A DNA stretch of 64,000 nucleotides from Stenocarpella maydis (lineage: Eukaryota; Ascomycota; Sordariomycetes; Diaporthales; Diaporthaceae): NCBI GenBank assembly GCA_002270565.1, contig NQMI01000087.1, forward strand, positions 62,001 to 126,000. Reading direction: 5' to 3'. Below, in pieces: positions 10,737 to 49,561 of the stretch. The notes under the pieces were generated by a model. It worked only from the letters and a program-made list of their open reading frames with translations, did no database searches and had not been told where the DNA came from. Every line of letters begins with the position of its first letter. Within the stretch, counting starts at the first letter, position 1. Made by a program: the position numbers and the translations under genes.

Positions 10737-11454
10737 ATGGACCCGCTTCCTTGCGGCTGTGCCATGATAGCCAGCCGATCTCTGCAAGATCTGGAGCCCA
10801 CCATCTTCCCGGCATTCGGCGGCGGGGAGAACAGTCAATGCGGTGTCATGCGTTACACCAGCCGTTTGGGGTGTGTTGTGCATGAGAGCCTTCCCGAGAA
10901 ATGCAATGTGCTACGCGCAGCTTGGGGAGTCCTTCTGGGATGTTTCACTGGACTGGAGAAAGTCTGCTTTGCATTTGAGCATAATGGTACCACAAGCTCG
11001 GGACATGCAGATGGATCTACGACAATAGCACAGCTGACTGTGCCCGCCGATCACAAAGTTCGAAGTCTATTGACCGGGAGCTTTTCCGCCCTGCTCTCTG
11101 TTCCACACAGCAACGCAGAGACACTGCTCAACACTGCGCTTTGCATCTGCAGCTTTTCCCACGAGCCGAGCGATGATGATGACCGGGCTGAAACAAAACG
11201 CCATGACTCTGTGTCATGGTGCAAGGTCCGCATGTTCGTGGACCCTGACACCCTTGACACGGTCATTTCGTGGCATCCTGGCTTCATGACCCAAGAACAG
11301 GCAGAGAACATCAGCGATACCTACCACAAGATCATCAGTGAAATTACCATCCACCCTGAGACTCTGATATCGAACCTGAACTACTTCGGTGAGAAGAATC
11401 AGCGCCAAGCCATTGCGTGGAACAGCGACGCGCCGAGTAATGTACAGAAGTGTA
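10737..11454 (+). other. NRPS: N-terminal partial condensation-like domain
   Basis: Residues about 20-235 resemble only the C-terminal half of a condensation domain (LRAAWGVLLGCFTGLEKVCF, later ISDTYHKIISEI). There is no HHxxxDG motif, so it should not make a peptide bond. Truncated C-like starts of this kind occur in other fungal NRPSs. Confidence 0.75.
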
Positions 11455-17400: not shown

Positions 17401-20400
17401 AGAAATCGCTAGCCTGCTTCGTTTGTGCCGATGCAGACGCCTCCCTCGCCGACAGCAGCAACGAGATCACGATTGTGGGCATGAACAAAGAGTATAGGGC
17501 TCGGTTCAAAGACATGGAGGTGCTTCTGTCTACCCTCATTCCTACCTACATGGTCCCATCCGTTTGGTTGCCCATAAACAAGATGCCCTTGACTGCATCT
17601 GGCAAGCTGAACCGGGGCAGCCTCCGACTGCTTGCACAAATGGTTCCTGCACCACTCATGGCCTCTTACAAGCTCGCCTTGAAGTCCGGCAGGGTTCCAT
17701 CAAGTGAGGAAGAGAAACAAATGGCTGCCATTTGGGCTTCTGTACTTGGCATCGACGCGGGGTCCATCGGAGTTGAAGATCATTTCTTCAGACTTGGAGG
17801 CGACTCTATTGGTGCCATGAGATTGGTCACACTAGCACGACAGCACGATATCAATCTGACCGTGGCTAGCATCTTCGAAAAGCCGTCCTTGTTGGACATG
17901 GTCCACTCAGCACACCCCTTGACCAAGGAAATCGCCACGACCGTCCAGCCGTTTTCGCTGTTATCCAATGTGGCTTCCGTGGATGTGCTGCAGCGAGAGG
18001 TTGCGGCCCTTGCTCGCATAGATGCTGAAGCCATTCAGGATTTGTACCCTTGTACCCCAACACAAGAGGGCCTTGTGGCCCTCTCGATGAAAGAGCCAGG
18101 GGCATATGTTGCCCAGCTCGTCTACCGCCTGCCAGATGGAATAGACGTCATGAAATTCAAGAGAGCTTGCGAACTCGTAGTCCAAGCCGAACCGACACTG
18201 AGAACTAGAATTGTCCATACCGAAGATATCGGGTTCGTGCAGGTTGTGGTAGCTGTGGATGCGCCTCAGTGGTCCACGGTGGCAAGTGTCGACGAGGTGG
18301 AACAGTTCCGGCGTCAGCTTCCTCTCCACAATGGCGGGAGACTGACTAACTATAACCTTGTTGATACTGGCTCCACTGGAGTCCTATTCGTCTGGGATAT
18401 TCACCATGCACTCTACGACGGCTGGTGTTTGCCTCTCATGTTGGAAAAGATTAAGCGATGCTACGAGGATGTGCCGAGTCCCGCAGAGCTCAGCGGCCCT
18501 TCATATTCCAAATTCATCCAATATCTTACAGAAATTGACGCGGATCAATCACACGAGTTCTGGGAGTCATACCTATCCAACATCTCGACCCAACACTTTC
18601 CACGCCTGCCCAGCCCTGGTTATCAGTCAAGCGCGAGTAGTCTCTTGATTCACAAGGCAGAGTTGAGCCGCCGTCAGGTCGGATCCGAGATCACTACGGC
18701 TACGAGAATCCGTGCAGCTTGGGCACTGACCATTTCCACTTACTCGACGACAAACGATGTCGTGTTTTGGGAAACTCTTACGGGGCGGGACGCTCCTGTA
18801 GATGGAATCGAGGAAATGGTGGGCGCGACGTTGGCAACTGTACCGACACGAATGGTAATTGATTCTTCGCATACAGTTGCTGGGCTTCTTGGCTACGTCC
18901 AAGAAAAGTCAGCAGCTGTGAGGCGCCATCAATATACCGGCATACAGCAAATCAAACGCATCAACGCTGATACTGCCCTTGCGTGTGGCGCCCAGAACCT
19001 CATAGCCATCAACCACGGGCCACGAGAGTTGACGGATACTTTCTGGGACGAGCAGACCAACGAGATGGCTGGCACAAACTTCTACTCGTATCCCCTCATG
19101 CTCTCATGCCACATTGGAGATTCTGAGCTTGAGACCGTTGTGCATTTTGACCACAACGTCATCTCAGAATCACACATGCGGCGCGTCATGGACCAGTTCG
19201 AATTGATGTTGCAATCCGTATCATCCCCTGAGCTGCGGGATGAAAAGATTGGGAACCTGGCCATGCTGACCCCCAACGATATCCGGACGCTGCAGGAGCT
19301 CAATAGTTCAGCAACGCCTCCTGTCAATCGACTCATACACGAGGTCATCCTGGATCAGGCTCTTACCAAAGCACAGGACAAGCTGGCCGTCTGCGCGTGG
19401 GATCACAGCCTCACCTATTCGGAACTGGATGATCAATCTACGCGTCTCGCATGTTTGCTCGTCGAGAACGGCGTTCAAGCCAATTCCATCGTTCCAATTT
19501 GCATGGAAAAGTCATCTCTCGTCGTCATCTCCATCATGGCAATCCTCAAGTCGGGTGCTGCCTTTGTCTCCCTGGACCCTGCCCATCCTGATGTCCGGAT
19601 CAACGGCATTCTCGGTGATGTTGAGGCCAGCGTTCTCCTCTCCTCCCCGCAGTATGCTGAGCGTCTGGGACATCTCGGACCAAAGGTGATCCAGGTGTCA
19701 CAAGACTTCGTCAATAGCATCGCACAGCGCCAGAAGCCGACTGTTTCTCTTTCCGTCGACAGCCCGGCCTATGTCATCTTTACCTCCGGCACAACTGGGA
19801 AACCCAAGGGGACAATCGTCAGTCACTCAGCCTTTTGCACAGGTGCAACAGCCCATGGTCGCGCTCTGGGCATGACCGAGTCGTCTCGTGTCTTGCAGTT
19901 TGCATCCTATACTTTTGACGCTAGCATTATGGAGATCTTGACCACTCTTATTCACGGTGGCGTTGTCTGTGTGCCCAGTGACGAGGAACGCATTAATAAT
20001 ATCGCGAGCGCTATCAATCGAATGCAAGTCAATTGGACATTGCTGACACCCTCAGTTGCCCAGCTGATCTCACCGTCCCTGACACCTGGGCTCAAGACAC
20101 TGGTGCTTGGAGGCGAGGCCATGTCCTCTGCTCACATCTCTACCTGGGCGCCATCGGTCCAGCTGATGAACGCGTATGGACCTAGTGAGACTGCCGTCAT
20201 CGCTACCGTTAACTCCAACGTCACGCTTGAATCGGGTCCTTCTGATATTGGTCATGCAGTGGGAGGCATCTGCTGGGTCGTCGATGCGAACAACCACAAC
20301 AGACTGATGCCAATTGGCGCCGTCGGTGAGCTCGTGGTGGAGGGCCCAACCCTCGCCCAAGGCTATCTCAAGAATGCCCACAAGACGGCAGAATCATTCA

Positions 20401-23400
20401 TCACCAACCCGAAGTGGTGCAGCGAGTTTCCTAGCACTGCTGGGGGCAACGAGCGCAGGATGTACAAGACTGGAGACCTGGTCAAGGTCGGCGACGATGG
20501 GACCATTCTCTTCCAGAACAGAAAAGATGACCAAGTTAAAGTCAACGGTCAGAGACTCGAGCTGGCTGAAGTCGAGCACCACCTCGGCGGAGATCCTCTG
20601 ATCCAGCATTGTCTAGCGGCTGTTCCGTCGTCTGGTGCTTTCAAGGGGCGTCTCGTCGCCGTCCTATGTTTGCAGTCACAAGCCACGACGAGAAATACCA
20701 CGCAGAATGAAGAGATGCAGGTCCTCGGGGAATATTCCTTCTCCGAAATAAAAAGTATCCGTGAGAATTTAGCTGGACACCTGCCAGCTTACATGATTCC
20801 GACCGCGTGGATTGTCGTCGGCCGCATCCATCTCCTCCCGTCTGGTAAGCTTGACCGCAGGCGTGTGACGAACTGCGTCGAGAGGATGACTGCCGAACAT
20901 TACCAACTTGTTCTCAACGCACAGGAGAAGACCACTGCTCTAGACAGAGAGGCGTCAGAGGTGGAGGTCAAGCTTCGGTCTGCCTGGGCCAAGGTCCTCA
21001 ACGTCAAGGTGGACTCGGTGCCATTCAACCAATCTTTCCTTCATCTGGGAGGCGATTCAATCTCGGCAATGCAGTTGATGGCTGTCTGCAGGTCCTCAAA
21101 CATGGGCGTGTCGGTTGGTCAAATCATGAAGAGCAAGTCAATCATCGAGCTTGCGTCTTGTGTCGCCGCTGTCGAGCAGGTTGTGCATGAGCAGGAGCAG
21201 GAGAATGTGTCTTTTGACTTGTCTCCCATCCAAAAGGTGTACTTCGAATGTTTCGGTACCGACTCTACTCATTTCAACCAGAGCCTGCTTCTGGAAACTA
21301 CACGCACAATCACTTCCCGGGAGCTCGCGTCAGCCTTGGAAACCATCATCAGAACACACAGCATGCTGCGCGCTCGCTACTCGCAGGCCAATGGCAACTG
21401 GTATCAGCGTATAACTAGCGAAGTCACCGGATCGTACACTCTCCATACACACGACAAAGTCGACCAGAGTCATCTCGTTGCATTGGTCGAAGAGAGCCAG
21501 AAGTCTTTGAACATCATCGAGGGACCTCTACTAGCCGCGGACATTTTTGAGATGAGTTCAACCGGCCATCAAATTGTTTCCATCGTCGCCCACCACCTTG
21601 TCGTCGATGTTGTTTCTTGGAATATTATCCTGCAAGACCTGAATGGACTCTTGTCGTCAGCCGCCTACAGACCCGCGAAACCACTTTCATTCCAAGCATG
21701 GCTCTCTCTGCAACATGAGGAAGTTCGCAAAACGGCACTCGAACAGGTTTTCCACGGCATTCCGGCACCTCCGCAAGATCTCTCATACTGGGGGATGCAA
21801 GGCGTACCCAATGTCCACGGCGACTCACTCAGCGAGACAATAGAGCTGGCCACGGATGACTCGCTTCTACTCTTGGGGCCTTGTCACGACGCTTTTAACA
21901 CCGAAGTTGTCGATGTCTTGTTAGCCTCGCTGTTGGTATCCTTCCGCCAAATCTTTTCAGACCGCCCCGCTGTCCCATCAATATTCAATGAAGGTCATGG
22001 CAGAGAGCCCTGGGAGCATGAACTAGACTTATCACGCACCGTTGGGTGGTTTACCACTCTCTCCCCAGTCTACTTGCCCGAAAGCTTGCCCTCCAAGCTA
22101 GACATTCTCAATGCTGTGCTATGGGTGAGGGACTTCAGACAAAAGCTCCCCGGAAAGGGCCGTCCTTACTTTGCTCACAAAATGCTGTCTGATCACAGCC
22201 AGATGACTCCCCGTGAATGGCCCGTGGAAGTGGCATTCAACTTTCTCGGCCACACAGACCTAATAAAGTCTGAAGACTCGGTATTCACGGCTGTCAATGG
22301 GAGCATATCGGACTCTGTGAGTTCAAAAACCGACATTGGGGCCAACGTCCCTCGCCTCGCACTCGTTGAGATCTCAGCTGCCTTCTCTGGTCAAAGATTA
22401 AGCTTGAGCTTCTCGTTCAATCATCAAATGAATCGCCAATCATATATCCCAAAGTGGATGGCGGCTTGCAAGGCGTCAATTCAACAGGCTATTCAGAAGC
22501 TATCTGAAATCAGACATGAACGGCCAACCGCTGACCTGTCTCTTCTTCCCCTTGCTTTTGGGACCGGATCCCGGGTCGGGGATAAGCTCACTGAAATGGG
22601 CGTTTCTCATCTCGAAGAGGTCGAAGCTGCATACCCATGCTCTCCGGTACAGCAGGGTATTCTCCTGGCACAGATAAGGCACCCCGAATGCTATTCGTAC
22701 TCGATCACCTTTTCGATGAAGTCCAAGCAACCGGGCGATGCCGTGGACGTACAGCGCCTAGCTGATGCCTGGCAACGCGTAGTGCAACGGCATTCGACCC
22801 TGCGAACCGTGTTTGTGGACAGTTTACTCCAGGAAGGAGTAATGGACCAAGTAGTCCTGCGGGAGCACCGTGCTGATATTGCTTTCCACGGTTACTCCGA
22901 CAGCGGGCCAGCTCAAATACTTGGTCTACATTCGCCACTAGGTCTTCCCACCGATCGACCACCCCATCGCCTCAATATTTTCAAGGATCCAGAAGGAACG
23001 GTGTTCTGTGTTCTAGAGATGAGCCATGCGCTTGCCGACGGATCATCGATGCCCATTCTGTTCCATGACCTGGCCTTGGCGTACGAAGGTGCCCTCGCCA
23101 CCACAGGTCTTTCTGTATACAGAGACTACGTCGCTTACTTGCAGCGAAGCCGGGGCTCCCAAGACATCGATTACTGGAAAGAATACCTCTCTGGGGCTGA
23201 GCCTTGTTATCTACCTTCACGAACTGGTGGAGCCGAAGTGCCCAAGACTTTGCGAGCGCTGAACTGGCATATCTCCCATGTGGCTGAACTTCAACGGTTC
23301 TGCATCGAAAAAGGTTTCACGCTCTCCAACGTGCTTCAGTTGGCCTGGGCACTAGTCCTTCAAGCATATACAGGCCTTGACGACGTCCTGTTTGGATATC

Positions 23401-26400
23401 TGGTTGCCGGGAGGGACATCCCCGTGTCTGATATTGAGCAGGCAGTCGGGGTCTATATCAACATGCTGGTATGCCGAGTGCGTCTCAGCTCGTCTATCAG
23501 CCTGGGCGATGTCCTCAATTCCGTCCAGGAAGACCTCGCAGCGGCGATGAATCACAAGCACGTCTCACTTGCTGATTTGCAACACTCTATGGGTGCTGGC
23601 AACGAGCCTCTGTTCAACACTGCCTACTCCTTCCAGAGAAGATCTGTCTCCAAGTCAATGGCCACGGAAGCCGTTTCGTTCGACATTAGTGACGCGCATG
23701 ATCCTAGTGAATACGATTTGACCGTCAACGTCGAAGTTTGGGACACGAGCGTGGAGCTGCAGCTGTGCTACTGGACAGACAAGATTCTAGATTCACAGGC
23801 CAGCAATCTTGCTTCCACGCTGGACCAAATCTTGACTTCGATCGTGACGTGTGACCTGGTGGCGCCGACAGGAGAACTTCATATGCTCAGTGCCCACTGC
23901 TCGAGACAGCTGCTATCATGGAACAATACCGAACCGGAGTACTTGGACGAGTGCGTTCACCACGTCTTTGAGCAAAACGTCCGACAACAACCAGATGAGA
24001 CACCGGCTGTTGAGGCATGGGATGGAAAGTTCACCTACCTGCAGCTAGACGTGGCGGCTTCACAGCTCGCCCAGCACCTGGTATCTCTCGGGGTCAGGCC
24101 CGATACATACGTCCCTCTTTGCTTCCAAAAGTCGGCATGGACAGTCGTCGCCATGTTGGCTGTTCTCAAGGCTGGCGGCGCTTTCGTCCCTCTGGACCCT
24201 ACTTACCCACCTGAGCGAGTCCATTTTATCGTCCACAACGTCGATGCTAAAATAATTCTTTGCTCGCCTTCTTTGACGAACAAGTTTGATGCTTTGGATA
24301 TCCCGACATTTGCTGTCGCTCCGGAGACTGTATCGCTATTACCTCAGGTACAGGAAGTATCCCTTGGAGCCCAGGTTAGACCGAACAATGCGGCCTACAT
24401 CATCTTCACCTCGGGCACCACTGGTCTTCCCAAAGGCACAATTATTGAGCACGGTCCCTTCACAACCGGGGCCACGGCCCATGCCAAGGCCATAAAGATG
24501 AACTCTACCTCTCGTGTGCTGCAGTTCGCATCATACACGTTCGATGCTAGCGTCATGGAGATCCTGTCTACCTTGTTAGTCGGCGGCTGCGTCTGCATTC
24601 CCAGTGATCAGGAACGCATGAACGACCTGGCTGCTGTGATGACCAAGTTGAATGTCAACTGGACCCTTCTTACACCAGCCGTGGCAAGCGTGTTAAAGCC
24701 AGACAGCATGCCAACCCTCAAGGTGCTCGTTACCGGTGGTGAAGCAATGTCGACAGATCATATTGCCAAGTGGGCGAGCCACGCGGCCCTCATCAACGCC
24801 TATGGGCCGAGCGAGGCATGTGTCATCGCTGCTACAAGCACAAAAGTTGAACATCACGGTACGGTCCTAAACTCAGACCCCGCCACAATTGGGCGTGCTG
24901 TCGGCTGTCGTTGCTGGATCGTTGATCCACGCAACCATAACCGCCTCATGCCCATCGGAAGCATCGGTGAGCTCTTGATTGAAGGGCCCATTGTTGCGAG
25001 GGGGTACCTGGGCAATGACGCCAAGACAAGGGAGGCTTTCATAGAGCATCCGTCATGGCGTACAGGTATGGACCTCGCTGGCGGCCGCATAGACCGTATG
25101 TACAAGACTGGTGATCTAGTCGCGTACAACCCGGACGGCTCCCTCAGCTATATCGCACGCCTCGACACCCAGGTCAAGCTCAACGGACAGCGTATCGAAG
25201 TCGGCGAGATCGAACATCACGTCAGAGCCAACTTACCAGCTGACGTCCAGTCAGCTGTTGACCTTGTGGTTCCCCAGAGCAAGACATCTACAAAGGCACT
25301 GGCAGTGTTCTTCACCATTAGTGGAAGTGCCGGAGATACTGCATCCGGGGAGACGGATGCAATTCTCTTACCCCCGTCAAGTGGTTCCGCCAAACTTGGC
25401 CAGTCGCTCAAGACGGCACTTCGGGGTGCTCTGCCCTCACACATGGTGCCAACTATTTACATCCCGGTGAACAGGATGCCCTGGACGCTGGCTGGGAAAC
25501 TAGACCGCAAGAGGCTCAAGACAATTGCTCAGTCTATAGCGCCCCAGCACATGGCCTCCTACAAGCTCGCAGGGGTCAGCACAAGCCGAGCTGTTACCAC
25601 GTCGATGCAACGCAGAATGCAGAAAATCTGGGCAAAGGTTCTGAACATCAAACCAGAAAGCATAAGCAGAGATGATAGCTTTTTCAGGCTAGGCGGTGAT
25701 TCAATTGGGGCCATGAAGCTTGTCTCTGCTGCGAGAACGGAGGACGTTATAATCACCGCCAAGAACGTCTTTGAGAACCCCGTCCTGTCGGATATGGCAG
25801 CGTCGTGCAAACTCTCCAATGGGGCTTCCGCCACTAATGTGGAGCGCCTTTCTCTGCTACGAGACGTTGCGTCTCCGTCTCTGCTTCTCGGCGAGCTTGC
25901 AGAACGCTGTGGTATCCAGAAGGGCCAGATCCAAGACGTGTACCCGTGTAGCTCCCTCCAAGAAGGGCTCATGGCTGCGTCTATGCAGAGTCCAGGTGCA
26001 TATGTCGCCAGAAATGTATTTGAACTGGCTTCGAGTGTCGAAATTGACCGTTTGAAGCTGGCGTGGCAAAAGACCGTTGACCAAGTCGACATCCTGAGAT
26101 CACGCGTTGTCAACAGCCAGTCCCTCAAGTCATACCAGGTCGTTCTCGAGTCGCATAAGATCGAGTGGGAAACCTACACCAGCCTTGAATCTGCCATTGA
26201 GAACATCAGAACAGTTCCAGAACACAATGGAGGGATCCTGGCCCGTTACGCAATTGTCAACCCGGCTGGTTCAGGCCCCAGCCACCTGGTGTGGACCATC
26301 CATCATGCGCTATACGATGCTTGGAGTATGCCCCCTGTCCTGAATATGGTTTCGGAATTCTACCACGGAGATGGCTGTGCGGAACTGAGGCCGGCCGTTT

Positions 26401-29400
26401 CATTTGCAAATTTCGCAAAATACTTGGCCGAGATCGATAGACAAGCATCTGACCAGTTCTGGAAGACCAGGTTCCAAGGCACTTCTCCTGCGACTCATTT
26501 CCCGACCATGTCCTCTACACCAGGCGCTGAATCATCCAGGACTTCACTGAAGCATACGATCCAGTACGAAAAAGACAACCTTGGAGTGGACGTAACTAAC
26601 TCGTCGGTCGTCCGTGCAGCCTGGGCGCTTGTTTTGGCTTCTCAAGCCGGCTCCGACGACATTGTCTTCGGCGAGACCTTGTCTGGACGTGACATTGATC
26701 TTGATTATGTAGAAGACATCATTGGCCCAACCTTGACCACCGTGCCCTCGAGGATTCAGATCAATCGGGATGCTACCGTTGGCCAGTTCTTGAGGACCAT
26801 TCATGATCAAGCAACCGCGGTGATTCCTTATCAGCATGCTGGTCTTCAACACATCAAGCGTCTGGGCAACGCCATTGCAGTTGCCTGCGACTTCAGGAAT
26901 CTGCTGGTTATCCAGTCTGCCGACGACACAACTAGCCAAGAGGACATATTGAAGCCATTGGAAGACGGAGCCGATCAGTCAAACTTCTTCACGTACCCGC
27001 TGGTCGTCGAGTGCTTTATTGAAGCCCATGATCTAGTCCTGGTAATCCACCATGATGAGTCAGTTATTCAAAGCTGGCAAGTCGAGCGCATCGCTCTTCA
27101 ATTCCAGAATCTGGTAGAGCAGCTCATCCATCTGTCGCGAGACCCAACCAGCAAAGTCTCCGACCTTCAACTCTACGGCCAAGAAGATGTCGACATGATC
27201 AGAGGGTGGAATCACTCGACTTTTAGGCCTGTCCAAGAAAGCATCGCCAGCTTGTTCTGGCGTTCAGCCATCACACAGCCGAATGCTCCGGCCATTCGAG
27301 CTTGGGATGGTCATCTCAGTTACGATGCCGTCGCCCAGTACGCCGGCCGCCTCGCCAAGCTACTCGTGCAGAAAGGAGTACGAGCTGAGGCGCTGGTTCC
27401 ATGCTGTATGGACAAGTCTCTCTGGACCACGGTCTCGATGCTCGCCGTGATACTCGCTGGTGGTGCTATCGTTCCCATGGACCCTGCGCAACCCCCTGCT
27501 CGCCATGCAGAAATTATCCGCGACTGCGGGGCCCTTGTTGCTCTCTGTTCACCACAGTATCAGGACCGCTTGAGTGGCCTCGTTGAGTCTGTGGTCCTGG
27601 TCAACGCCGAATTGTTCGAGGCTCATCTGTTCACCTATAGTATCGGACCGCAGGATCTGCCGACCGTCGCCAGTCGAGATGCTGCATTTGTCATCTATAC
27701 CTCCGGTAGCACCGGAAGCCCAAAAGGCGTCGTGATTGACCATGGGTCGTTCTCTGCGAGTTCTGAGGGATTCATGCGCCGCTTGAGCCTTACTTCGGCG
27801 TCCAGAATCTTCCACTTCACTTCTTATGCATTCGACATCGCAATGGCAGAGACCTTTATCGCCCTCGCCAGCGGCGCCTGCCTTTGCGTTCCCAGTGAGG
27901 ATATGAGGGTGGCAGATCTGGCAGGGGCCATGAATACCCTCGGGGCCACTTGGGCCTTCTTGACGCCCTCGGTTGCTAATATCCAGGATCCCTCTCGGTT
28001 CACAACACTGCAAACACTCGTCTGCGGAGGCGAAGCGCTGACACCCGAGACGATCAGCACTTGGGGAGACAGGCTTGAGCTGATGAACGGCTACGGGCCA
28101 GCCGAGTGTACTTTTCTTGCCGTTGCCAACACGGACCTCTCAGTCACCAAGGAACACACAAATATCGGCCGCGCCCTGGACGGGTGTCACACGTGGGTTG
28201 TCGACCCCAAAGACCACAACTGCCTCTTGCCGGTGGGCTGTACAGGTGAATTGCTCATTAGCGGCCCTATCGTTTCGCGTGGTTACTTGAACGATGGTGC
28301 AAAAACGGCTGAATCATTTATCGAAAACCCTGCGTGGATGCACTATTTCGTCAGTGGAGAGCATCATCAACAGAATTTGCGTCTATACAAGACGGGCGAC
28401 CTAGTCAAGTACAACCATGACGGAACCTTGGAATACAAGGGGCGCAAAGATCACCAGGTTAAGCTCAACGGCCAGCGTATGGAGCTCGGGGAGATTGAAG
28501 CTCGTCTTGAGTCTGACCAGCACATTTGCCAGGCCGTTGTCACTCTACCAAAGTCTGGAGTCTTCATGGGTCGTCTCGTGGCCACTGTCTCTCTTGGAGA
28601 TGCTTTGCCACAGACGTCAAGACTTGCATACCCAGAACTCATCCCAGTCTCTGCGTCTGAGATGCAAATTGCTCGAACCCAGGTTTCCGCGTTTCAGAAT
28701 CATCTTTCCGACACTCTCCCACGCTACATGGTTCCATCGGCTTGGTTTGTGGTTGAGTCCATTCCCCTCTTGCTCTCTGGCAAGGTCGATAGGACTAGTG
28801 TTCAGTCATGGCTCGCCAACATGGACACTGAGACGTCTGTACTTGCCATCAATTCAGAGAGCAGCGACGATGTTGCGGTATCTGACATGACGTCGATTGG
28901 ACAGCAACTCAGACGTATCTGGGCGTCAGTCCTAAACATCGCCGAGGAAAAGATGCCCACGAACCGCTCTTTAATCGTTCTCGGCGGTGACTCTATCTCA
29001 GCGATTCAGATTTTGACTCGTTGCCGCGATCAATCTATCAGATTATCCATGCAGGAAGTGATGAGTGATAGGTCGATCAATGACCTAGCCAGGCTCATAG
29101 AGGCAGAAGATCGGCAAATGCGGAATGACGGCCCTGAGCTTGAAGAACAGACCAATGTCGAATTTGAGCTGTCACCAATCCAGCACTTGTTCTTCAATAA
29201 CAGCTCCAATAGCGACTACGGAGACCGCTTCAATCAAAGCCAGCTCCTCTCGATCAAGGGCCAATTCGATGTATCCAGGTTCAAGCATGCTGTCAACGCA
29301 CTCGTCACGAGACACCCAATGCTTCGAGCCCGCTTCAAGAAATCCCCCGATGGACGGTGGACCCAGAAGATTGTTTCAGAGATCGAAACTGCATATGCCT

Positions 29401-32400
29401 TCCACTTCCACAACTTGGTTGAGACATCTGACATGATTTCAATCCTCACCGCTAGCCAAAAAAGCGTCCATATTTCCGGCCCCGTCTTCGTCGTGGATCT
29501 CTTTCAACGGCCCGATGGCTCTCAAGCAGTGTCACTAATAGCCCATCATCTGGTTGTTGACATCGTCTCCTGGATCAACATCGTTCGTGACCTTGAGATA
29601 TTTCTTTCATCTGCCAGCCCGACATACTCCAAGCCCTTCTCGTTTCGGGATTGGAATACAGCGCAGATTGAACATGCCAGATCTCTTGAGAGACATGGAG
29701 ATAACCTGCTGTCGTTCCCTGTGCAGGCTGCCGATTTCAACTTCTGGGGCATGTCAAGCACCGGCAACGTCTATGGAGATGTTATTAAGCAGGACTTTAC
29801 TGTCTCTGATTCCAACATTGTCTCTCTGATGCTGGGTAACGCCAACACGGCACTCAGGACGGAGCCTCTGGATCTGCTCATCTCGGCTCTTCTCAAGTCA
29901 TTTGGGAACATCTTCAGAGAGCGAGAGTTCCCAACATTGTTCAACGAAGGTCATGGCCGTGAGCCTTGGGACGACACCATTGACCTCTCCCAAACTGTCG
30001 GATGGTTTACCTCACTTTTCCCCGTCCATGTGTCTCGACGCGACCTCGATCCCAATGGCGTCATCGACTGTGTTCGCAAGGTCAAGGACATGCGACGCAG
30101 CGTCCCAAGTAACGGTCGGCCTTACTTCGCCTACCGGTACCTGACCGAGTCGGGGAAGCACCAGTTCGGCAATCATGAGCCCATGGAGATTTTGGTGAAT
30201 TTCCTAGGCCGCACTCAACAGACAAGCAAGAGTGATTCTCTCTTGAGCTCATTTGATCTACCATTGACTGAAACTGATATGGCGGCCATTTCTGATGTCG
30301 CGCCTGAGACTCGCCGTCTAGCCTTGTTCGAGGTTTCGATATCGATCCTTGACGAGGGCGTGGAGTTCATCTTCATGTATAATAAGCACATGCTCCACCA
30401 AGAACGCATCGCGGAGTGGGTATTCAACTGCGAGGAGGTACTCGTCGACACTGCAAAACGACTTAGCGAGGCCCTGCCCACTCCCACGCTCAGCGACTTC
30501 CCTCTCATTCCCGTCGGCTACACAGAGCTACAGGAGCTCGTCACAAGATCTCTTCCTGCTGCCCACGTTCAGTTTGACAAGGTCGAGGATATGTATCCCT
30601 GCTCACCAATGCAGACAGGTATATTACTCAGTCAGCTCCTGGATCCGTCTCAGTACCTGTTCCATACTGTCATTGAGGTGACCTCTTCCAGCGCCTCAAC
30701 CGTTGACGCCGTGAGACTATCACAAGCTTGCTATCAAGTCATTTGTCGCCATCCTGCTTTGCGAACTATCTTTATTGAGAGCACTTACCGTGGCGGTTTG
30801 TTCGACCAGGTCGTGCTGAAACCCCAGGAGGCTCGGATCACCGTCATTGAGTGTCGGGAAATCGACGTGATGGCAAAACTGAACGCCATATCGCTTCACG
30901 AGACCAACCAGAGGCATGATGACCCGACTCTTCCCTACCAGATCACTATCTGCCAGACACCGAAGGGCAAAGTGTTTATGAAGTTGGAGTTGAACCATGC
31001 GGTCACAGATGGTGCTTCAACATCGATCATCCTGCGCGACATTTCGAACGCATACATCAACAACTTGCCTCCAACCAAGGCCCCTTCGTATAAGGAGTAC
31101 ATCAAGTATATTTCCAGTCAGCCCACTGCCTCAAGCCTCGGTTTCTGGTCTGGCTACCTTGACGGGGCGCGGTACACCGAGTTTCCAACCATCAATCCTG
31201 ATATCATGGCTCACCGCAGCCTAGGATCCGTCGAGGTCCGGTTTGATCGGTTTTCCGAGCTGCAATCTATGGCCCGCGGAATTGGAGTGACATTGCCCAA
31301 CATGATCGTTGTCGCATGGGCCCTCGTGCTTCGGGGGTACACGAAGTCCGACGATGTCAGTTTCGGCTATCTCGCCTCTGGGCGTGATGCCCTCATTGGT
31401 GGCGTTGACGAAATAGTTGGCCCCCTAATTAACATGCTCGTGTTCCGCTTTCGGTTCGCGGCCGACGTGCCCCTCAAGAGGCTTTTCGTCAATGCCCAAC
31501 AAGACTATCTTTCCAGCCTGCCGCACCAGCACGTTTCCCTGGCTCGTGTTAGCCATGAACTGGGGCAGAAACGAGGCTTCTTCAACACTGCCGTCTCTAT
31601 CCAAAATTCCAGTTCGTCCAGCGGTTCAGATTTGCACGCTCTCACATACGAATCAGTCGAGGCCTTCGACCCAAGCGAATATGCAGTTACCCTCAATGCC
31701 AACACCGCTCGCGGCGATGAAGGCGTTTTATTCCGCTATTGGACTGATGTTCTGTCAGATTCGCAAGCCCAGGATCTCGCTCTCAATATGTCGGTGTTGC
31801 TAGGCGACTTTGTCGATCACAGCGAAGATGCTGTATCCCATTTACGACTCTCCCGGGACCCGCAGCTCCTTACCAATGGCGATACGGACACAGACGAACT
31901 TGGTCTCTGGTCACTACAAGGTGACGATCCAAAGTGTGCCGCGCTTGTCCATAGCTTGACAAGCAGCGATTCCTGGACAGATCTAGGTGGTTCAGTGTCT
32001 TCCCCGCCCACTGCATCTCGTCCCTGTACCCCTCGCAAGAATAACCTCCACCACAAGCTGTCGGCATTATGGAGAGACACTCTCAGTTTAGAAAGTGCTT
32101 CACTTTCATATGAAGACAGCTTTTTCGAGCTTGGTGGTGACTCTATTATAGCCATGTCAATGGTGGGCAATGCTCGGGAGATGGGCATCCAGCTCACCGT
32201 GGCAGACATCTTCCACAACCCCAGATTTGGCTCAATGCTTGATTGTCTCATGGATCAATCACCCAAGGATTCCGGCACGGCGTCAGGGGTTGACAAATCG
32301 TCCTCCTTGGATTCAAAGAAGAAGGGGGCCGTGATCGGTGAACCAGTATATCAGCCCTTCTCCATGCTTGGCCAGGAGAACGCCGAGCAATTCGTCCGAG

Positions 32401-33686
32401 ACCACATCTGCAGCATCATAGGCGTGTCCCGAGCCAGCATCGTTGACGTCCTCCCCACAACCGACTTTCAGACCCAGGCCGTTGGGGGGAACCTACTCCC
32501 GTCGCGCTGGATGCTAAATTACTTCCACCTGGACTCGACAGGCCATCTCGACACTGACCTGTTACGAGAAAGCATCACGAATGTCGTGGCGTGTCATGAT
32601 GTGTTGCGCACTGTCTTCATACCCCACCAGGAGAGATACCTCCAAGTTATCCTCCGCCAAGTGGAAACCCCACTAACCGTCCATGATGTCGACGATATTG
32701 AGCGGTTCACCTCAGAGCTCTGGTCCATCCATCAACATGAAAGCCGGCGGCCTGAGCAGCCATCCCTCCGCTTCATTGTGGCGAGACAAAAGTCATCGCT
32801 ACTACACAGGATTTTCATTCGAATATCGCATGCTCAGTATGACGGTGTCTGTTTCCCAGCTATCCTCGGGGCGTTGAAGGCCTGCTATGAGGGAGAGCCC
32901 ATCCTTCCGACGCCTTCGTATGCAACTTATATTCGCGGCGCGCTGGGTAAGATCACCCCGGACCATTACGCGTACTGGACGGCGCTCCTCAAGGATTCCG
33001 CCCCGACCAATATCATCCCACGAGAGCGCAGCTCGCTACACACGGCTCCTACCCAGGTCCTAAAGGCCGTCGTGTCCACGCCGTCGCTCGCATCCGTCAA
33101 CATTACCACGGCTACCGTCATCAAGGCTGCCTGGTCGGTGGTCTTGGCAAAGGCCACGGGCAAGACGGACGTCGTCTTCGGCCACCTCATCAGCGGGCGC
33201 AACGTAGCCGGCGTGGCAGGCATTGAATCCGTCGTCGGCCCCTGCCTGAACCTGGTTCCAGTGCGCGTCCGGTACGGACCCTCTTGGACCGTGCTGCGCC
33301 TCCTCCAGCACATCCAGAACCAGCAGGTTGACAACATGGCGTACGAGTCGCTCGGCTTCAAGGAGATCATCGACAGGTGCACTGACTGGAATGATGATGG
33401 GGTAAACGGGTTCTCAACCGTCGTCCAGCACCAAAGCATGCCTCAGACGGATGCTCTTACAATCGGAGGGAACACTTACCAAGTTGGTGCCATGGCCTCG
33501 CAGGAGGACACTGCTGATTTCAGCGTCGTCACCACGCCCCGAGATGCGAACAGCACCGAGGTCTGTCTGCTTTATGCCGGGGACGGAGCTATAAACGCGG
33601 GTTCCGCACAGGAGATGTTTGACTCTCTTTGCGTCACTATTACGGAGTTCTCGGAGAACCTGAACGGATTTGTCGGAGTTTATTGA
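10737..33686 (+). CDS. Giant nonribosomal peptide synthetase, five A domains, three epimerases
   Basis: A cytosolic multimodular enzyme that builds a peptide from amino acids activated as adenylates and held on phosphopantetheine arms. Intronless, about 7,649 residues. I start at 10737 (gccATGG context, MDPLPCGC) rather than at an in-frame ATG at 10443, because the extra 98 residues match no NRPS domain. Domain order with approximate residues: partial C 20-235; A1 240-755; T1 782-852; E1 865-1312; C1 1340-1772; A2 1784-2298; T2 2322-2392; C2 2433-2859; A3 2867-3375; T3 3408-3479; E2 3492-3935; C3 3962-4389; A4 4407-4927; T4 4957-5022; C4 5065-5492; A5 5500-6022; T5 6057-6122; E3 6143-6588; C5 6616-7039; T6 7105-7172; terminal C 7218-7649. 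No thioesterase is present; in fungal NRPSs a terminal C domain often releases the product by cyclisation. The product is unknown to me. Confidence 0.95.
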   Translation: MDPLPCGCAMIASRSLQDLEPTIFPAFGGGENSQCGVMRYTSRLGCVVHESLPEKCNVLRAAWGVLLGCFTGLEKVCFAFEHNGTTSSGHADGSTTIAQLTVPADHKVRSLLTGSFSALLSVPHSNAETLLNTALCICSFSHEPSDDDDRAETKRHDSVSWCKVRMFVDPDTLDTVISWHPGFMTQEQAENISDTYHKIISEITIHPETLISNLNYFGEKNQRQAIAWNSDAPSNVQKCIHQAVSEQRALRPYAEAVCAWDGSFSYEQLISLSDYLASRLQISGVGPEIFVPICFDKSKWTVVAMLAVLKAGGIFVPLDPTHPLSRLRALASKVQAKTILCSPQHQDMLQSVATELIAVDDRLFVNQPKHHEVINSVSSKNGAYMIFTSGTTGEPKGALIEHGALLSSALAHGPAMMMDHNTRSLHFAASTFDVSITEILTCLILGGCVCIPSEDARLNAIEDAITQLQANWALLTPTFVKFINPCNVPSLKTLVTGGEAMTQAVIHSWSHINLINCYGPAETSVVSHVHRGMRKGKNPLNIGHQVGVHCWVVDRYNHDRLVPVGAVGELVIEGHTLAREYYQEPEKTSEAFIVDPLWTRDQPPRNGPRRMYKTGDLVRYNHDGTFHIRGRKDSQIKFHGQRIELGEIEHHVNASSDIKHGMVVLPKDGFCKGRLLAIVQLANDMNQDLVPKGQPYKLIGGHLENTAREKVARVKQLLTERLPPYMVPSMWLAVEFIPRLQSGKLDRKQTAKWVDDMSEDLYRQLNPATATGPSEDLVFSSETEQDLHKIWTHVLNLKAEQLGLRQSFLSVGGDSISAMQVMSECRKRGLGLSVSQIIGCRSIKALALQVKDIGRQSFHQEVLERPFGLSPIQKLYFSRPDHARGHYNQSFLLRTSQRIPESDLRRAIETVVRRRSMLRARFSQDTAGEWQQRVTNEVESSYRLRAINLDSIDEVDHALVDSQTCLEVTHGPLFAADLISVKGGEELLFVVAHHLVIDLVSWRIILQELEELLLQPDAPLPDTRSILPYQIWCKMQSEHAQSQTPEQVLPIQGIPDGNIEYWGMEDVPNVYGQMAREGFDIGPAQTNLLLSKCHESLRTEIPDVLMAAMIFSFGQTFTDRSIPAVFAEGHGRESWDPSIDLSNVVGWFTTIYPVFSGSTSQTSLVDTAKMVKDGRRKVLDNGRPYFASRWLTKAGEDAFSRHWPLEITFNYLGQYQQLEREGALFTPLGDIAGEVKGAADGADIGPLTPCISLFEVSAVILKGSLRFSFGFNQNMRHQPKIRQWINSCQHSLGALIETLSNMTPEPTLSDFSLLSLTYDHLRLLTEQKLPKAGVNSMDLVEDIYPCSPMQSGLLISTTKNSAFYAAYTLHEVKTRSGLPVDVERLASAWKQMIEYHPILRTIFVESVAQQDSLYDQVVLKEVNCPLNVSEKDTEEEALTALSSPPLHQKENSNLLHHFEICTSKSGKVFCRLDISHVIMDGTSMSILFRDLSMAYEGTMEPREGPLYRNYIEHLQGQAIQPGIDYWKSHLAGVEPCHFPVLDDGDVVELKELRHLRVTFDELADLQRLCDARGVTIVNAIYTAWALTLRLYTASEEVCFGYLTSARDSQIEGIQDLVGPVINMVSCRVNVSSSTTLGEIMSLVQRDYLDSLEYRHISLAEVHHALHLSDAALFNTALSYRKLPHTPENPPDLLFQECRPTYDPDEYNVSINIEADDNNMAIDLMYWSDTLSDGQAANVASTFTQALSNVLHHCDQPIAQVEHLGSWHRQQLCQWNQQIPEAIESCLHDLFKQQAISRPEAPAITSWDMDFTFAELDNASTKLALHISSLGVGLEDFVLVCFDKSPFAIVAMLAIMKAGGACVPLDPAHPDAALQLRAEDTGASVALVSPSFASRISTMVKTTVAVDAQLLQTISVMPELPLPQVTPHNACFVIYTSGSTGRPKGVVLEHRGIATNAEYSGPKLGYESDSRVLQFASHTFDNSIAEIFTTLTRGGCVCVPSDHERLNDLAGAINRYGVTLADITPTVACLLPPTEVPTLKTLALGGEAVTNTCVDMWRDFVSLQCCYGPSECSVNSTYCGDISQPGKATNIGRAIGCVAWVVDTADHNSLLPIGCVGELLIDGPIVSRGYLNLPERMAQSFVLPPTFLERIKVQGGGLDRKLYKTGDLVRYNSDGTLTYLGRKDHQVKLNGQRIELGEIEHHIQKHLPEGWISAVELVFSEGKKSLACFVCADADASLADSSNEITIVGMNKEYRARFKDMEVLLSTLIPTYMVPSVWLPINKMPLTASGKLNRGSLRLLAQMVPAPLMASYKLALKSGRVPSSEEEKQMAAIWASVLGIDAGSIGVEDHFFRLGGDSIGAMRLVTLARQHDINLTVASIFEKPSLLDMVHSAHPLTKEIATTVQPFSLLSNVASVDVLQREVAALARIDAEAIQDLYPCTPTQEGLVALSMKEPGAYVAQLVYRLPDGIDVMKFKRACELVVQAEPTLRTRIVHTEDIGFVQVVVAVDAPQWSTVASVDEVEQFRRQLPLHNGGRLTNYNLVDTGSTGVLFVWDIHHALYDGWCLPLMLEKIKRCYEDVPSPAELSGPSYSKFIQYLTEIDADQSHEFWESYLSNISTQHFPRLPSPGYQSSASSLLIHKAELSRRQVGSEITTATRIRAAWALTISTYSTTNDVVFWETLTGRDAPVDGIEEMVGATLATVPTRMVIDSSHTVAGLLGYVQEKSAAVRRHQYTGIQQIKRINADTALACGAQNLIAINHGPRELTDTFWDEQTNEMAGTNFYSYPLMLSCHIGDSELETVVHFDHNVISESHMRRVMDQFELMLQSVSSPELRDEKIGNLAMLTPNDIRTLQELNSSATPPVNRLIHEVILDQALTKAQDKLAVCAWDHSLTYSELDDQSTRLACLLVENGVQANSIVPICMEKSSLVVISIMAILKSGAAFVSLDPAHPDVRINGILGDVEASVLLSSPQYAERLGHLGPKVIQVSQDFVNSIAQRQKPTVSLSVDSPAYVIFTSGTTGKPKGTIVSHSAFCTGATAHGRALGMTESSRVLQFASYTFDASIMEILTTLIHGGVVCVPSDEERINNIASAINRMQVNWTLLTPSVAQLISPSLTPGLKTLVLGGEAMSSAHISTWAPSVQLMNAYGPSETAVIATVNSNVTLESGPSDIGHAVGGICWVVDANNHNRLMPIGAVGELVVEGPTLAQGYLKNAHKTAESFITNPKWCSEFPSTAGGNERRMYKTGDLVKVGDDGTILFQNRKDDQVKVNGQRLELAEVEHHLGGDPLIQHCLAAVPSSGAFKGRLVAVLCLQSQATTRNTTQNEEMQVLGEYSFSEIKSIRENLAGHLPAYMIPTAWIVVGRIHLLPSGKLDRRRVTNCVERMTAEHYQLVLNAQEKTTALDREASEVEVKLRSAWAKVLNVKVDSVPFNQSFLHLGGDSISAMQLMAVCRSSNMGVSVGQIMKSKSIIELASCVAAVEQVVHEQEQENVSFDLSPIQKVYFECFGTDSTHFNQSLLLETTRTITSRELASALETIIRTHSMLRARYSQANGNWYQRITSEVTGSYTLHTHDKVDQSHLVALVEESQKSLNIIEGPLLAADIFEMSSTGHQIVSIVAHHLVVDVVSWNIILQDLNGLLSSAAYRPAKPLSFQAWLSLQHEEVRKTALEQVFHGIPAPPQDLSYWGMQGVPNVHGDSLSETIELATDDSLLLLGPCHDAFNTEVVDVLLASLLVSFRQIFSDRPAVPSIFNEGHGREPWEHELDLSRTVGWFTTLSPVYLPESLPSKLDILNAVLWVRDFRQKLPGKGRPYFAHKMLSDHSQMTPREWPVEVAFNFLGHTDLIKSEDSVFTAVNGSISDSVSSKTDIGANVPRLALVEISAAFSGQRLSLSFSFNHQMNRQSYIPKWMAACKASIQQAIQKLSEIRHERPTADLSLLPLAFGTGSRVGDKLTEMGVSHLEEVEAAYPCSPVQQGILLAQIRHPECYSYSITFSMKSKQPGDAVDVQRLADAWQRVVQRHSTLRTVFVDSLLQEGVMDQVVLREHRADIAFHGYSDSGPAQILGLHSPLGLPTDRPPHRLNIFKDPEGTVFCVLEMSHALADGSSMPILFHDLALAYEGALATTGLSVYRDYVAYLQRSRGSQDIDYWKEYLSGAEPCYLPSRTGGAEVPKTLRALNWHISHVAELQRFCIEKGFTLSNVLQLAWALVLQAYTGLDDVLFGYLVAGRDIPVSDIEQAVGVYINMLVCRVRLSSSISLGDVLNSVQEDLAAAMNHKHVSLADLQHSMGAGNEPLFNTAYSFQRRSVSKSMATEAVSFDISDAHDPSEYDLTVNVEVWDTSVELQLCYWTDKILDSQASNLASTLDQILTSIVTCDLVAPTGELHMLSAHCSRQLLSWNNTEPEYLDECVHHVFEQNVRQQPDETPAVEAWDGKFTYLQLDVAASQLAQHLVSLGVRPDTYVPLCFQKSAWTVVAMLAVLKAGGAFVPLDPTYPPERVHFIVHNVDAKIILCSPSLTNKFDALDIPTFAVAPETVSLLPQVQEVSLGAQVRPNNAAYIIFTSGTTGLPKGTIIEHGPFTTGATAHAKAIKMNSTSRVLQFASYTFDASVMEILSTLLVGGCVCIPSDQERMNDLAAVMTKLNVNWTLLTPAVASVLKPDSMPTLKVLVTGGEAMSTDHIAKWASHAALINAYGPSEACVIAATSTKVEHHGTVLNSDPATIGRAVGCRCWIVDPRNHNRLMPIGSIGELLIEGPIVARGYLGNDAKTREAFIEHPSWRTGMDLAGGRIDRMYKTGDLVAYNPDGSLSYIARLDTQVKLNGQRIEVGEIEHHVRANLPADVQSAVDLVVPQSKTSTKALAVFFTISGSAGDTASGETDAILLPPSSGSAKLGQSLKTALRGALPSHMVPTIYIPVNRMPWTLAGKLDRKRLKTIAQSIAPQHMASYKLAGVSTSRAVTTSMQRRMQKIWAKVLNIKPESISRDDSFFRLGGDSIGAMKLVSAARTEDVIITAKNVFENPVLSDMAASCKLSNGASATNVERLSLLRDVASPSLLLGELAERCGIQKGQIQDVYPCSSLQEGLMAASMQSPGAYVARNVFELASSVEIDRLKLAWQKTVDQVDILRSRVVNSQSLKSYQVVLESHKIEWETYTSLESAIENIRTVPEHNGGILARYAIVNPAGSGPSHLVWTIHHALYDAWSMPPVLNMVSEFYHGDGCAELRPAVSFANFAKYLAEIDRQASDQFWKTRFQGTSPATHFPTMSSTPGAESSRTSLKHTIQYEKDNLGVDVTNSSVVRAAWALVLASQAGSDDIVFGETLSGRDIDLDYVEDIIGPTLTTVPSRIQINRDATVGQFLRTIHDQATAVIPYQHAGLQHIKRLGNAIAVACDFRNLLVIQSADDTTSQEDILKPLEDGADQSNFFTYPLVVECFIEAHDLVLVIHHDESVIQSWQVERIALQFQNLVEQLIHLSRDPTSKVSDLQLYGQEDVDMIRGWNHSTFRPVQESIASLFWRSAITQPNAPAIRAWDGHLSYDAVAQYAGRLAKLLVQKGVRAEALVPCCMDKSLWTTVSMLAVILAGGAIVPMDPAQPPARHAEIIRDCGALVALCSPQYQDRLSGLVESVVLVNAELFEAHLFTYSIGPQDLPTVASRDAAFVIYTSGSTGSPKGVVIDHGSFSASSEGFMRRLSLTSASRIFHFTSYAFDIAMAETFIALASGACLCVPSEDMRVADLAGAMNTLGATWAFLTPSVANIQDPSRFTTLQTLVCGGEALTPETISTWGDRLELMNGYGPAECTFLAVANTDLSVTKEHTNIGRALDGCHTWVVDPKDHNCLLPVGCTGELLISGPIVSRGYLNDGAKTAESFIENPAWMHYFVSGEHHQQNLRLYKTGDLVKYNHDGTLEYKGRKDHQVKLNGQRMELGEIEARLESDQHICQAVVTLPKSGVFMGRLVATVSLGDALPQTSRLAYPELIPVSASEMQIARTQVSAFQNHLSDTLPRYMVPSAWFVVESIPLLLSGKVDRTSVQSWLANMDTETSVLAINSESSDDVAVSDMTSIGQQLRRIWASVLNIAEEKMPTNRSLIVLGGDSISAIQILTRCRDQSIRLSMQEVMSDRSINDLARLIEAEDRQMRNDGPELEEQTNVEFELSPIQHLFFNNSSNSDYGDRFNQSQLLSIKGQFDVSRFKHAVNALVTRHPMLRARFKKSPDGRWTQKIVSEIETAYAFHFHNLVETSDMISILTASQKSVHISGPVFVVDLFQRPDGSQAVSLIAHHLVVDIVSWINIVRDLEIFLSSASPTYSKPFSFRDWNTAQIEHARSLERHGDNLLSFPVQAADFNFWGMSSTGNVYGDVIKQDFTVSDSNIVSLMLGNANTALRTEPLDLLISALLKSFGNIFREREFPTLFNEGHGREPWDDTIDLSQTVGWFTSLFPVHVSRRDLDPNGVIDCVRKVKDMRRSVPSNGRPYFAYRYLTESGKHQFGNHEPMEILVNFLGRTQQTSKSDSLLSSFDLPLTETDMAAISDVAPETRRLALFEVSISILDEGVEFIFMYNKHMLHQERIAEWVFNCEEVLVDTAKRLSEALPTPTLSDFPLIPVGYTELQELVTRSLPAAHVQFDKVEDMYPCSPMQTGILLSQLLDPSQYLFHTVIEVTSSSASTVDAVRLSQACYQVICRHPALRTIFIESTYRGGLFDQVVLKPQEARITVIECREIDVMAKLNAISLHETNQRHDDPTLPYQITICQTPKGKVFMKLELNHAVTDGASTSIILRDISNAYINNLPPTKAPSYKEYIKYISSQPTASSLGFWSGYLDGARYTEFPTINPDIMAHRSLGSVEVRFDRFSELQSMARGIGVTLPNMIVVAWALVLRGYTKSDDVSFGYLASGRDALIGGVDEIVGPLINMLVFRFRFAADVPLKRLFVNAQQDYLSSLPHQHVSLARVSHELGQKRGFFNTAVSIQNSSSSSGSDLHALTYESVEAFDPSEYAVTLNANTARGDEGVLFRYWTDVLSDSQAQDLALNMSVLLGDFVDHSEDAVSHLRLSRDPQLLTNGDTDTDELGLWSLQGDDPKCAALVHSLTSSDSWTDLGGSVSSPPTASRPCTPRKNNLHHKLSALWRDTLSLESASLSYEDSFFELGGDSIIAMSMVGNAREMGIQLTVADIFHNPRFGSMLDCLMDQSPKDSGTASGVDKSSSLDSKKKGAVIGEPVYQPFSMLGQENAEQFVRDHICSIIGVSRASIVDVLPTTDFQTQAVGGNLLPSRWMLNYFHLDSTGHLDTDLLRESITNVVACHDVLRTVFIPHQERYLQVILRQVETPLTVHDVDDIERFTSELWSIHQHESRRPEQPSLRFIVARQKSSLLHRIFIRISHAQYDGVCFPAILGALKACYEGEPILPTPSYATYIRGALGKITPDHYAYWTALLKDSAPTNIIPRERSSLHTAPTQVLKAVVSTPSLASVNITTATVIKAAWSVVLAKATGKTDVVFGHLISGRNVAGVAGIESVVGPCLNLVPVRVRYGPSWTVLRLLQHIQNQQVDNMAYESLGFKEIIDRCTDWNDDGVNGFSTVVQHQSMPQTDALTIGGNTYQVGAMASQEDTADFSVVTTPRDANSTEVCLLYAGDGAINAGSAQEMFDSLCVTITEFSENLNGFVGVY
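11455..19334 (+). other. NRPS block 1: A1-T1-E1-C1-A2-T2-C2
   Basis: A1 has IFTSGTTGEPKG, NCYGPAE, YKTGDL and SGKLDR. A hand-read pocket code is D-V-T-L-V-G-C-V-V. T1 carries GGDSISAM. E1 has the epimerase-type HHLVIDLVSW motif (about 13711-13745) and EGHGRE, so residue 1 should leave as D. C1 has SHVIMDG in place of HHxxxDG, a form often seen in C domains placed after an epimerase. A2 has IYTSGSTGRPKG and code D-N-A-D-A-G-C-V-N; T2 has GGDSIGAM; C2 has HHALYDG. Codes were aligned by eye to the GrsA positions and are approximate; I cannot name the substrates from them. Confidence 0.85.
19335..27234 (+). other. NRPS block 2: A3-T3-E2-C3-A4-T4-C4
   Basis: The same domain order as block 1. A3 and A4 give the same hand-read pocket code, D-A-M-L-V-G-A-V-I, so they probably load the same, likely aliphatic, residue; epimerase E2 (HHLVVDVVSW, about 21591-21620) would make the first of the two D. 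T3 reads GGDSISAM and T4 GGDSIGAM, repeating the T1/T2 difference. C3 has SHALADG. C4 reads HHALYDA, with Ala where the motif's last Gly is expected. Confidence 0.85.
27235..33686 (+). other. NRPS block 3: A5-T5-E3-C5-(no A)-T6-terminal C
   Basis: A5 has IYTSGSTGSPKG and hand-read code D-I-A-F-V-G-G-F-L. T5 (GGDSISAI) and E3 (HHLVVDIVSW, about 29543-29572) follow, then C5 with NHAVTDG. Where blocks 1 and 2 next have an adenylation domain, there is only a Ser/Thr/Asp-rich linker of about 60-70 residues (about 31860-32045). T6 (ELGGDSIIAM, about 32130) is of the T2/T4 type, and the C-terminal condensation domain has SHAQYDG (about 32826-32846). It ends FVGVY just before the stop. Confidence 0.85.
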
Positions 33687-45800: not shown

Positions 45801-46994
45801 AAGTAGTTGAGGAAAGAAGAAGAAATGGTGGTATTGCTATGAGAAAATGTTGATAATCTGCTAGTTGGGTGCGGGTGGGTGGTTAGCCAGGGGCTTGGAG
45901 CTCAACCTTAGAGCGTATTATGAGCGGTTATATAAATTTAACGTTTTTTAGCCAAAATAGGGTCTTTTAGCTCTGGAAAAGTTTATAAACTATCATTTAA
46001 GTCTTTTTATATATAGAAATGAAGTTAGAATTAAATTTCATTTATTTATTAGAGAGATGCAAGAGTTTTAGTACTTATAATAATAATGTGTCCTAAGGTT
46101 TATAGAGCTTTACTATCTATAGCTAAAAACACCTAAATTTCTTATACACCAGGTAATACTCCTATATATCTTAATATAGGAAGGAGTGGAAAATGAAATA
46201 ATGAAACCTTAATAAAGTAGATTATGGGCTATAAAACGTATATTTTAGAATTCTATATGATTGTTTTGAGTAAATATATATAGATATCAAATATACCCCA
46301 AACTGGCAGGTGCCCCTAACCACCACTACTTGCTGGGCATACGATAGCCACTAATGCTTCTGCCTTAGTTAATACCCTTTTGCCTCGTAAATACCATAAC
46401 TTCTTACGTATAGCGCCATGTTGCATCTTTATTTTTATTTTTATTAATTCTATATTCCTCATAATGGGTATTCCATAATATATATATATATAATATTACT
46501 ATATGTTGGGGTACAGACTAAGCTAACTAACCTTCTCTATAGAAGCTTGTATATAACTAAAGCCATAATGTGCCTTAAGCCCTATATCTATATTAGCTTA
46601 TATTTTTACTTTATTAAAAGTGTTTTAGAGATAGTCCTATATTATAAAGCTCTTCAAAAAATACGGCATATGGAATAAAGAGGAGGAACATGCTTTAATA
46701 AAAAATAATAACTGTTAAACGGAAACCTCAGCAGAGAATTGGTACTCGTGCAGGGAGTTACCTTGAGGTTGTAAGGAGTTACCTTAGACTTGTTGTAAGG
46801 AGGTACCCTAGACTTGTGAGTCTGGCGATTTCGCTAAGTAAGCCCAGTGCGTGCGTGAAGAAAGATGAGTTTGGTGGACGTGAGTCGATTATTTTGGCAT
46901 GCATTTGCACCTTAATTCAGAGCTCTGCATACTTATTTGTTACCCAGAGGGTATTGACTTATGCATTGGATGGCTGATTTCTGAGGTTTGTATG

Positions 46995-49534: not shown

Positions 49535-49561
49535 GGTTTCTTACGTGAAGCGTAAGGAACC
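49535..49561. repeat. GAA-loop hairpin, unit A (also 52429-52455 in unit B)
   Basis: GGTTTCTTACGT, loop GAA, GCGTAAGGAACC. The arms are 12 bases with two C/T differences from a perfect palindrome, both of the C-to-T kind. A partial inverted copy of its left flank (TAAGCGTAGCGAGGAGG) is at about 52911-52937. Confidence 0.7.

Follow-up and report, generated by a model that had tools for sequence, protein, structure and literature searches.

The locus and its genes

The window, by which the whole analysed stretch of 64,000 nucleotides is meant, carries an NRPS reading frame (10425-33686, + strand) that is open throughout its 7753 codons. The gene itself (10737-33686, +) is intronless and encodes 7649 amino acids from the likely start codon, the position of which was set by alignment to the N-terminus of the Diaporthe eres protein. 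Pfam, run on the protein in two halves, matched AMP-binding five times (3+2), PP-binding six times (3+3) and condensation-type stretches ten times (4+6). These ten correspond to nine domains, since the cut divides E2. Profiles derived from the domains of this NRPS gave the order [A-T-E-C-A-T-C]-[A-T-E-C-A-T-C]-[A-T-E-C-T-C]. The initial annotation had proposed this order and its coordinates, and both hold by Pfam and by the own-domain profiles. Domain limits listed below are from the own-domain profiles, joined by the C tree for C1 to C4 and by the T tree for T2, T4 and T5. The A codes were read by motif, and their last lysine is assumed.

3821..8465 (-), ABC transporter gene with introns, from Pfam and a rough splice; outer exons uncertain; MRP-like by its relatives' names
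10737..33686 (+), NRPS gene, start likely, frame open from 10425
11469..13013 (+), A1, code DVTLLTCVVK
13074..13286 (+), T1
13317..14657 (+), E1
14742..16031 (+), C1
16107..17651 (+), A2, code DNADLLCVNK
17700..17912 (+), T2
18021..19289 (+), C2
19350..20894 (+), A3, code DAMILLAVIK
20952..21164 (+), T3
21195..22529 (+), E2
22608..23894 (+), C3
23970..25544 (+), A4, code DAMLLTAVIK
25596..25808 (+), T4
25917..27197 (+), C4
27258..28829 (+), A5, code DIAFLCGFLK, proposed loader of T5 and, by presumed double use, of T6
28887..29099 (+), T5
29148..30488 (+), E3
30570..31859 (+), C5, NHAVTDG active site, C1/C3 type by the C tree and alignment
31860..32036 (+), C5-T6 linker of 59 aa, where a sixth A would stand
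32037..32249 (+), T6, carrier without its own A, FELGGDS motif intact (T tree)
32427..33674 (+), terminal C with SHAQYDG, probably cyclising (C_T type), best solved relative TqaA at 4.1e-34

The linker that takes the place of a sixth A domain had been estimated at about 60-70 residues and measures 59. Its 177 nt are too short for a frameshifted A domain, which needs about 1550 nt; this candidate, named beforehand as something to check, was rejected. The best solved relative of the terminal C is the C_T domain of TqaA, which we take to be the fumiquinazoline synthetase, and SHxxxDG is presumably the C_T form of the active site. The likeness to TqaA is one of sequence comparison only, and on it the terminal C probably cyclises.

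Twenty neighbouring ORFs, ten on each side of the NRPS, were scanned with Pfam. In the ABC transporter the membrane and ATPase parts are over the cut-off and TMD0, at 25.5 bits, is below its cut-off of 27. No glycoside hydrolase or MFS transporter was matched in the 20 ORFs, a scan that may miss short exons. Directly downstream of the NRPS lies a squalene-hopene cyclase-like gene (35554-37308, +), followed by NACHT-type NTPase ORFs and a WD40-repeat ORF (38887-42855, -), possibly one NOD-like gene. The stretch 46001-50000 is AT-rich (GC 0.39-0.40, the NRPS having about 0.53), lacks ORFs of 300 aa and perhaps consists of decayed repeats.

Register of the carriers and condensation domains

Domain trees were built from samples chosen from 121 proteins, the window protein and its relatives: 12 proteins for the T tree (72 domains), nine each for the C tree (54 domains) and the A tree (45 domains), and 34 for a whole-protein tree. 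In the T tree, T1/T3/T5 separate from T2/T4/T6 at 100/99, as expected from the two carrier types in register that had been claimed. T6 forms a single clade (100/98), and T1, T3 and T4 each do not. The A1/A3/A5 and A2/A4 groups separate at 99 in the A tree, with A3 in two pieces. In the C tree, a short search with SH-aLRT support only and a warning of long branches meeting, C1/C3/C5 (99) stand apart from C2/C4 (99), and the last C is alone (100). Thus T6 groups with T2/T4 and C5 with C1/C3, the two placements for which the initial annotation had asked trees to be built. The A, T and C domains of the window and of F. graminearum pair position by position, the T4 pairing being weak (92/61).

The idea of three repeated two-module blocks is upheld in its register and fails at the last C, which is not of the C2/C4 type; the third block is therefore no plain copy of the first two. 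Placed by these trees, it is a two-module block of the same make minus its even A domain, with a different last C. T6, by the same trees, is an even carrier by descent, kin of T2 and T4. A column scan found T6 nearest to T4 in 25 columns, T2 in 19, T5 in 9, T1 in 9 and T3 in 4. A T5-like make-up of T6 was also considered, and was rejected for want of an overall excess in the scan. The columns Ser+2 and Ser+12 are common to T5 and T6 in the family, and the T5 of the window has serine at Ser+2.

An end without an A domain is the family's normal form

Relatives were the best 120 of 579 candidates that shared most words with the query within the length range, and are 6475-7959 aa long. Exactly the domain string of the window was found in 74 of 121 proteins (the best 120 of 579 plus the window), and 34 more have the same string plus an N-terminal C remnant and/or a terminal T. 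A further 11 match after merging of neighbouring hits of the same type, which were confirmed as fragments of one domain each. The whole order is thus present in 118 of these 120 relatives; P0073 ends alike but has lost an internal part, and P0089 stops after C5. None of the 121 proteins has a sixth A domain, and a more distant six-A version could exist beyond the best 120 of 579. The description of T6 as the carrier of a lost sixth module can be kept for an A-less sixth module in register with T2/T4; the loss of a former sixth A is only putative, no six-A relative being among the best 120. The relatives' names include Diaporthe, Fusarium, Stachybotrys, Clonostachys, Trichophyton, Talaromyces, Cadophora, Zopfia and lichen fungi, which we take to span several classes of the Pezizomycotina. 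In 12 of the 121 proteins an extra carrier follows the terminal C, as in HcpA; the window protein does not have it.

With P0073 and P0089 left out, the T6 serine, the His and Asp of C5 and the active-site His of the terminal C are each kept in 119 of 119 proteins, and C3 has Asn in place of His in 3 of 119. Since the T6 serine and the C5 histidine are invariant, the sixth slot appears to be used; an idle carrier and C domain would hardly stay so conserved.

Orthology to the fusahexin synthetase

Proteins of Diaporthe and Fusarium head the list of relatives, in which three carry the name NRPS4 (P0011, P0054, P0061). The F. graminearum protein P0026, itself without the NRPS4 label, is 65% identical to the window protein over the whole length, and the F. 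solani-melongenae protein 75%, also over the whole length. Compared with P0026, the codes of A1, A2 and A4 are identical; of nine positions, two are changed in A3 and three in A5. The two enzymes are alike in domain order, length, A codes, terminal C type and the neighbouring ABC transporter; they differ in overall identity, from 65% (F. graminearum) to 76% (F. albosuccineum), and in the A3 and A5 codes. On these comparisons, the window protein and the fusahexin synthetase NRPS4 of Fusarium are orthologues. Within the family, P0009 (Diaporthe batatas) has the A2 code DVPVLLCINK instead of the DNADLLCVNK of the window, D. eres and F. graminearum, with A1 and A4 codes unchanged; a substrate change at residue 2 is possible there.

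The original report of fusahexin is said to have appeared in J. Nat. Prod. in 2021. NRPS4 of F. graminearum makes fusahexin (PMC10967133), described as cyclo(D-Ala-L-Leu-D-aThr-L-Pro-D-Leu-L-Leu) (PMC12340964). According to a review, the residues D-Ala, L-Leu, D-allo-Thr and L-Pro come from modules 1-4, module 5 then works twice, for D-Leu and next for L-Leu, and the cluster includes ABC transporter, glycoside hydrolase and MFS transporter genes (PMC10967133). Elsewhere the locus is called a two-gene cluster, and fusahexin is counted in the abstract among metabolites with a role in virulence, an involvement that the text says remains unclear (PMC11677700). The formula given for fusahexin, C30H50N6O7, corresponds by hand calculation to an [M+H]+ of about 607.38. 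The three E domains of the window NRPS fit a D-L-D-L-D-L product.

Members of this characterised synthetase family thus normally lack an A domain in the last module, and the layout is widespread and already described. An A-less end combined with alternating epimerases had been thought not to be known, yet HcpA was published with such an end and the proteins named NRPS4 share the order. Nor is the absence of the A domain particular to one gene: the 118 of the 120 listed relatives with the same whole order lead us to reject a recent loss. Either such a loss or an assembly fault in the S. maydis genome now has next to no probability, and no point in its support was found.

HcpA and other synthetases with A-less ends

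The nearest published parallel is HcpA, the fungisporin synthetase of P. chrysogenum and Aspergillus niger, likened here by its published description. In Penicillium chrysogenum its order is A1-PCP1-E-C2-A4-A2-PCP2-C3-A3-PCP3-E-C4-PCP4-C-PCP, and its products include cyclo(D-Phe-L-Phe-D-Val-L-Val) among ten related tetrapeptides (PMC4041764). It shares with the window NRPS the alternating E domains and the A-less E-C-T-C end, and its main product ends in D-Val-L-Val. It differs in having four residues and modules, an adjacent A4-A2 pair in module 2 and an extra carrier after the last C. In the authors' first model A4 acts on PCP4 in trans; alternatively, A3 loads both PCP3 and PCP4 (PMC4041764). 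Both A3 and A4 take Val before Ile (PMC4041764), and since Ile is also taken, the last two residues need not always match.

The two enzymes with an E-C-T-C end that were found described both have a main product closing with the same residue in D and then L form, as would be predicted if a single A domain charged both carriers. The shared D-X-L-X ending, read from two products, would fit such a use of one A for two carriers. Ferrichrome-type siderophore synthetases of fungi also have terminal T-C units without A, and are not known to have alternating E domains. A literature search found no paper on cyclic hexapeptide synthetases with five A domains.

Loading of T6

We consider it likely that the five A domains serve six carriers, A5 charging both T5 and T6, and that the product, a ring of six residues alternating in D and L form, is fusahexin or closely akin to it. 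Modules 1-4 would add D-, L-, D- and L-residues. A5 would charge T5, and also T6; E3 would turn the residue on T5 to the D form, and C5 would join the D-terminated pentapeptide to a further molecule of this amino acid, left in the L form on T6. Ring closure by the terminal C would follow, giving a cyclic alternating D/L hexapeptide with its last two residues alike (D-X-L-X), which the adjoining ABC transporter may export. We infer that A5 rather than another A domain loads T6, and likewise infer the identity of the product and its export.

The descent of T6 as an even carrier counts against loading by A5, and sequence alone does not settle which A domain loads it. Loading by another A domain of the same protein, across modules, is an unlikely alternative, with A2 (or A4) as the likeliest donor. 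The kinship of T6 to T2/T4 in the T tree speaks for it, as does the fact that residues 2 and 6 of fusahexin are both L-Leu (PMC12340964, PMC10967133), so that A2 could be the loader; moreover, for HcpA the loader preferred by its authors is a remote A domain with no E beside it (PMC4041764). Nevertheless, several further modules of the chain would separate A2 from T6, in the main HcpA product the final residue likewise matches the one preceding the A-less module (PMC4041764), and the review gives the double use to module 5 (PMC10967133). Of the options offered by the initial annotation, loading by the A domain of another module is the one that fares best.

An A domain of a separate protein encoded elsewhere could also charge T6, and the genome does hold other NRPS loci: a search of 53.5 Mb in 312 contigs returned 43 condensation matches on several contigs, those of the window gene included. 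With no A domain in the 20 neighbouring ORFs scanned with Pfam, and with the NRPS4 cluster described in the review without a separate loader (PMC10967133), this is very improbable. Marginally less credible still is a T6 that is never aminoacylated, relaying the pentapeptide from T5 to the terminal C, or a silent C5. Either would suit an A-less C-T-C end on paper, and both had been offered in the initial annotation; the C5 His and Asp and the T6 Ser conserved in 119 of 119 proteins, the grouping of C5 with C1/C3 and the six residues of the orthologue's product, a hexapeptide (PMC10967133, PMC12340964), argue against them. Double use of A5 is thus retained as the preferred reading.

A linker segment in other members of the family

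In the relatives, 48 of the 53 C5-T6 linkers of at least 80 aa match a conserved helix-like segment (profile, E up to 0.01), ten of them by construction because the profile was built from ten of the long linkers; the helix-like character was judged by eye. Among shorter linkers 1 of 66 matches. Elsewhere in the proteins the profile has no match at E up to 0.1, and matches in eight proteins at E up to 1. This small profile replaced a regular expression that missed most lichen sequences. Bearers of the segment are, for example, P0079, P0090 and P0093; it is absent from all 45 named Fusarium and Diaporthe proteins of the set, the window protein being one of the 45. We entertain, as a doubtful proposal, that the A-less slot reflects an ancient arrangement kept by selection, with a single A domain serving two carriers astride an E and a C, that in many relatives outside Fusarium and Diaporthe a conserved helix-like segment resembling LRxIVxECVxEVIEQMFKSG draws A5 and T6 towards each other, and that the window's lineage has a short linker instead.

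Origin of the locus

A single control gene was used for the affinity of the host. It encodes a SEN2-like tRNA endonuclease (58410-60080), whose identity is 73-80% with five named Diaporthe proteins (80-83% with the best others), 65-68% with those of Cytospora and 46-48% with those of Fusarium; the host is therefore Diaporthe-like (order Diaporthales). The NRPS is 82% identical to that of D. eres, 77% to D. batatas and 76% each to F. albosuccineum and Thelonectria. In the whole-protein tree (34 proteins, LG+G4, short search) the Diaporthe clade lies inside the Nectriaceae as sister to a group that includes F. albosuccineum, F. piperis and F. solani-melongenae; Neonectria, Thelonectria and the other Fusarium branch outside. 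A tree holding the Nectriaceae together is rejected (p-AU 1.34e-94), with a constraint that included row lgn10, added after the tree was seen.

The transporter, compared over 771 residues of the rough splice, is 79% identical to that of D. batatas and 78% to those of F. zealandicum, F. decemcellulare and F. solani-melongenae. Its tag adjoins that of the NRPS in at least six other genomes (F66182_4163/4164, FGADI_2224/2223, FIESC28_05919/05918, FGRMN_4636/4635, ACHAPJ_009790/009789, Q9167_000804/000805); the tags lie apart in D. batatas (KVR01_009473, 008948), F. sarcochroum (FSARC_11314, 6132) and F. solani-melongenae (LCI18_014023, 013747). The nesting of the NRPS in the Nectriaceae and the near-equal identity of the transporter to Fusarium and Diaporthe point to horizontal transfer, by which NRPS and transporter seem to have come from a Fusarium-like fungus. 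A literature search on fusahexin, NRPS4 and horizontal gene transfer found nothing naming Diaporthe.

What looks like a striking missing domain is thus the regular state in a synthetase family that has been characterised. With five A domains and six residues, product prediction by counting A domains fails in a regular way, and the last two residues of the product are probably alike. Since NRPS and transporter have likely moved together from one fungal order to another, the pair is also a small and convenient example for work on cluster transfer.
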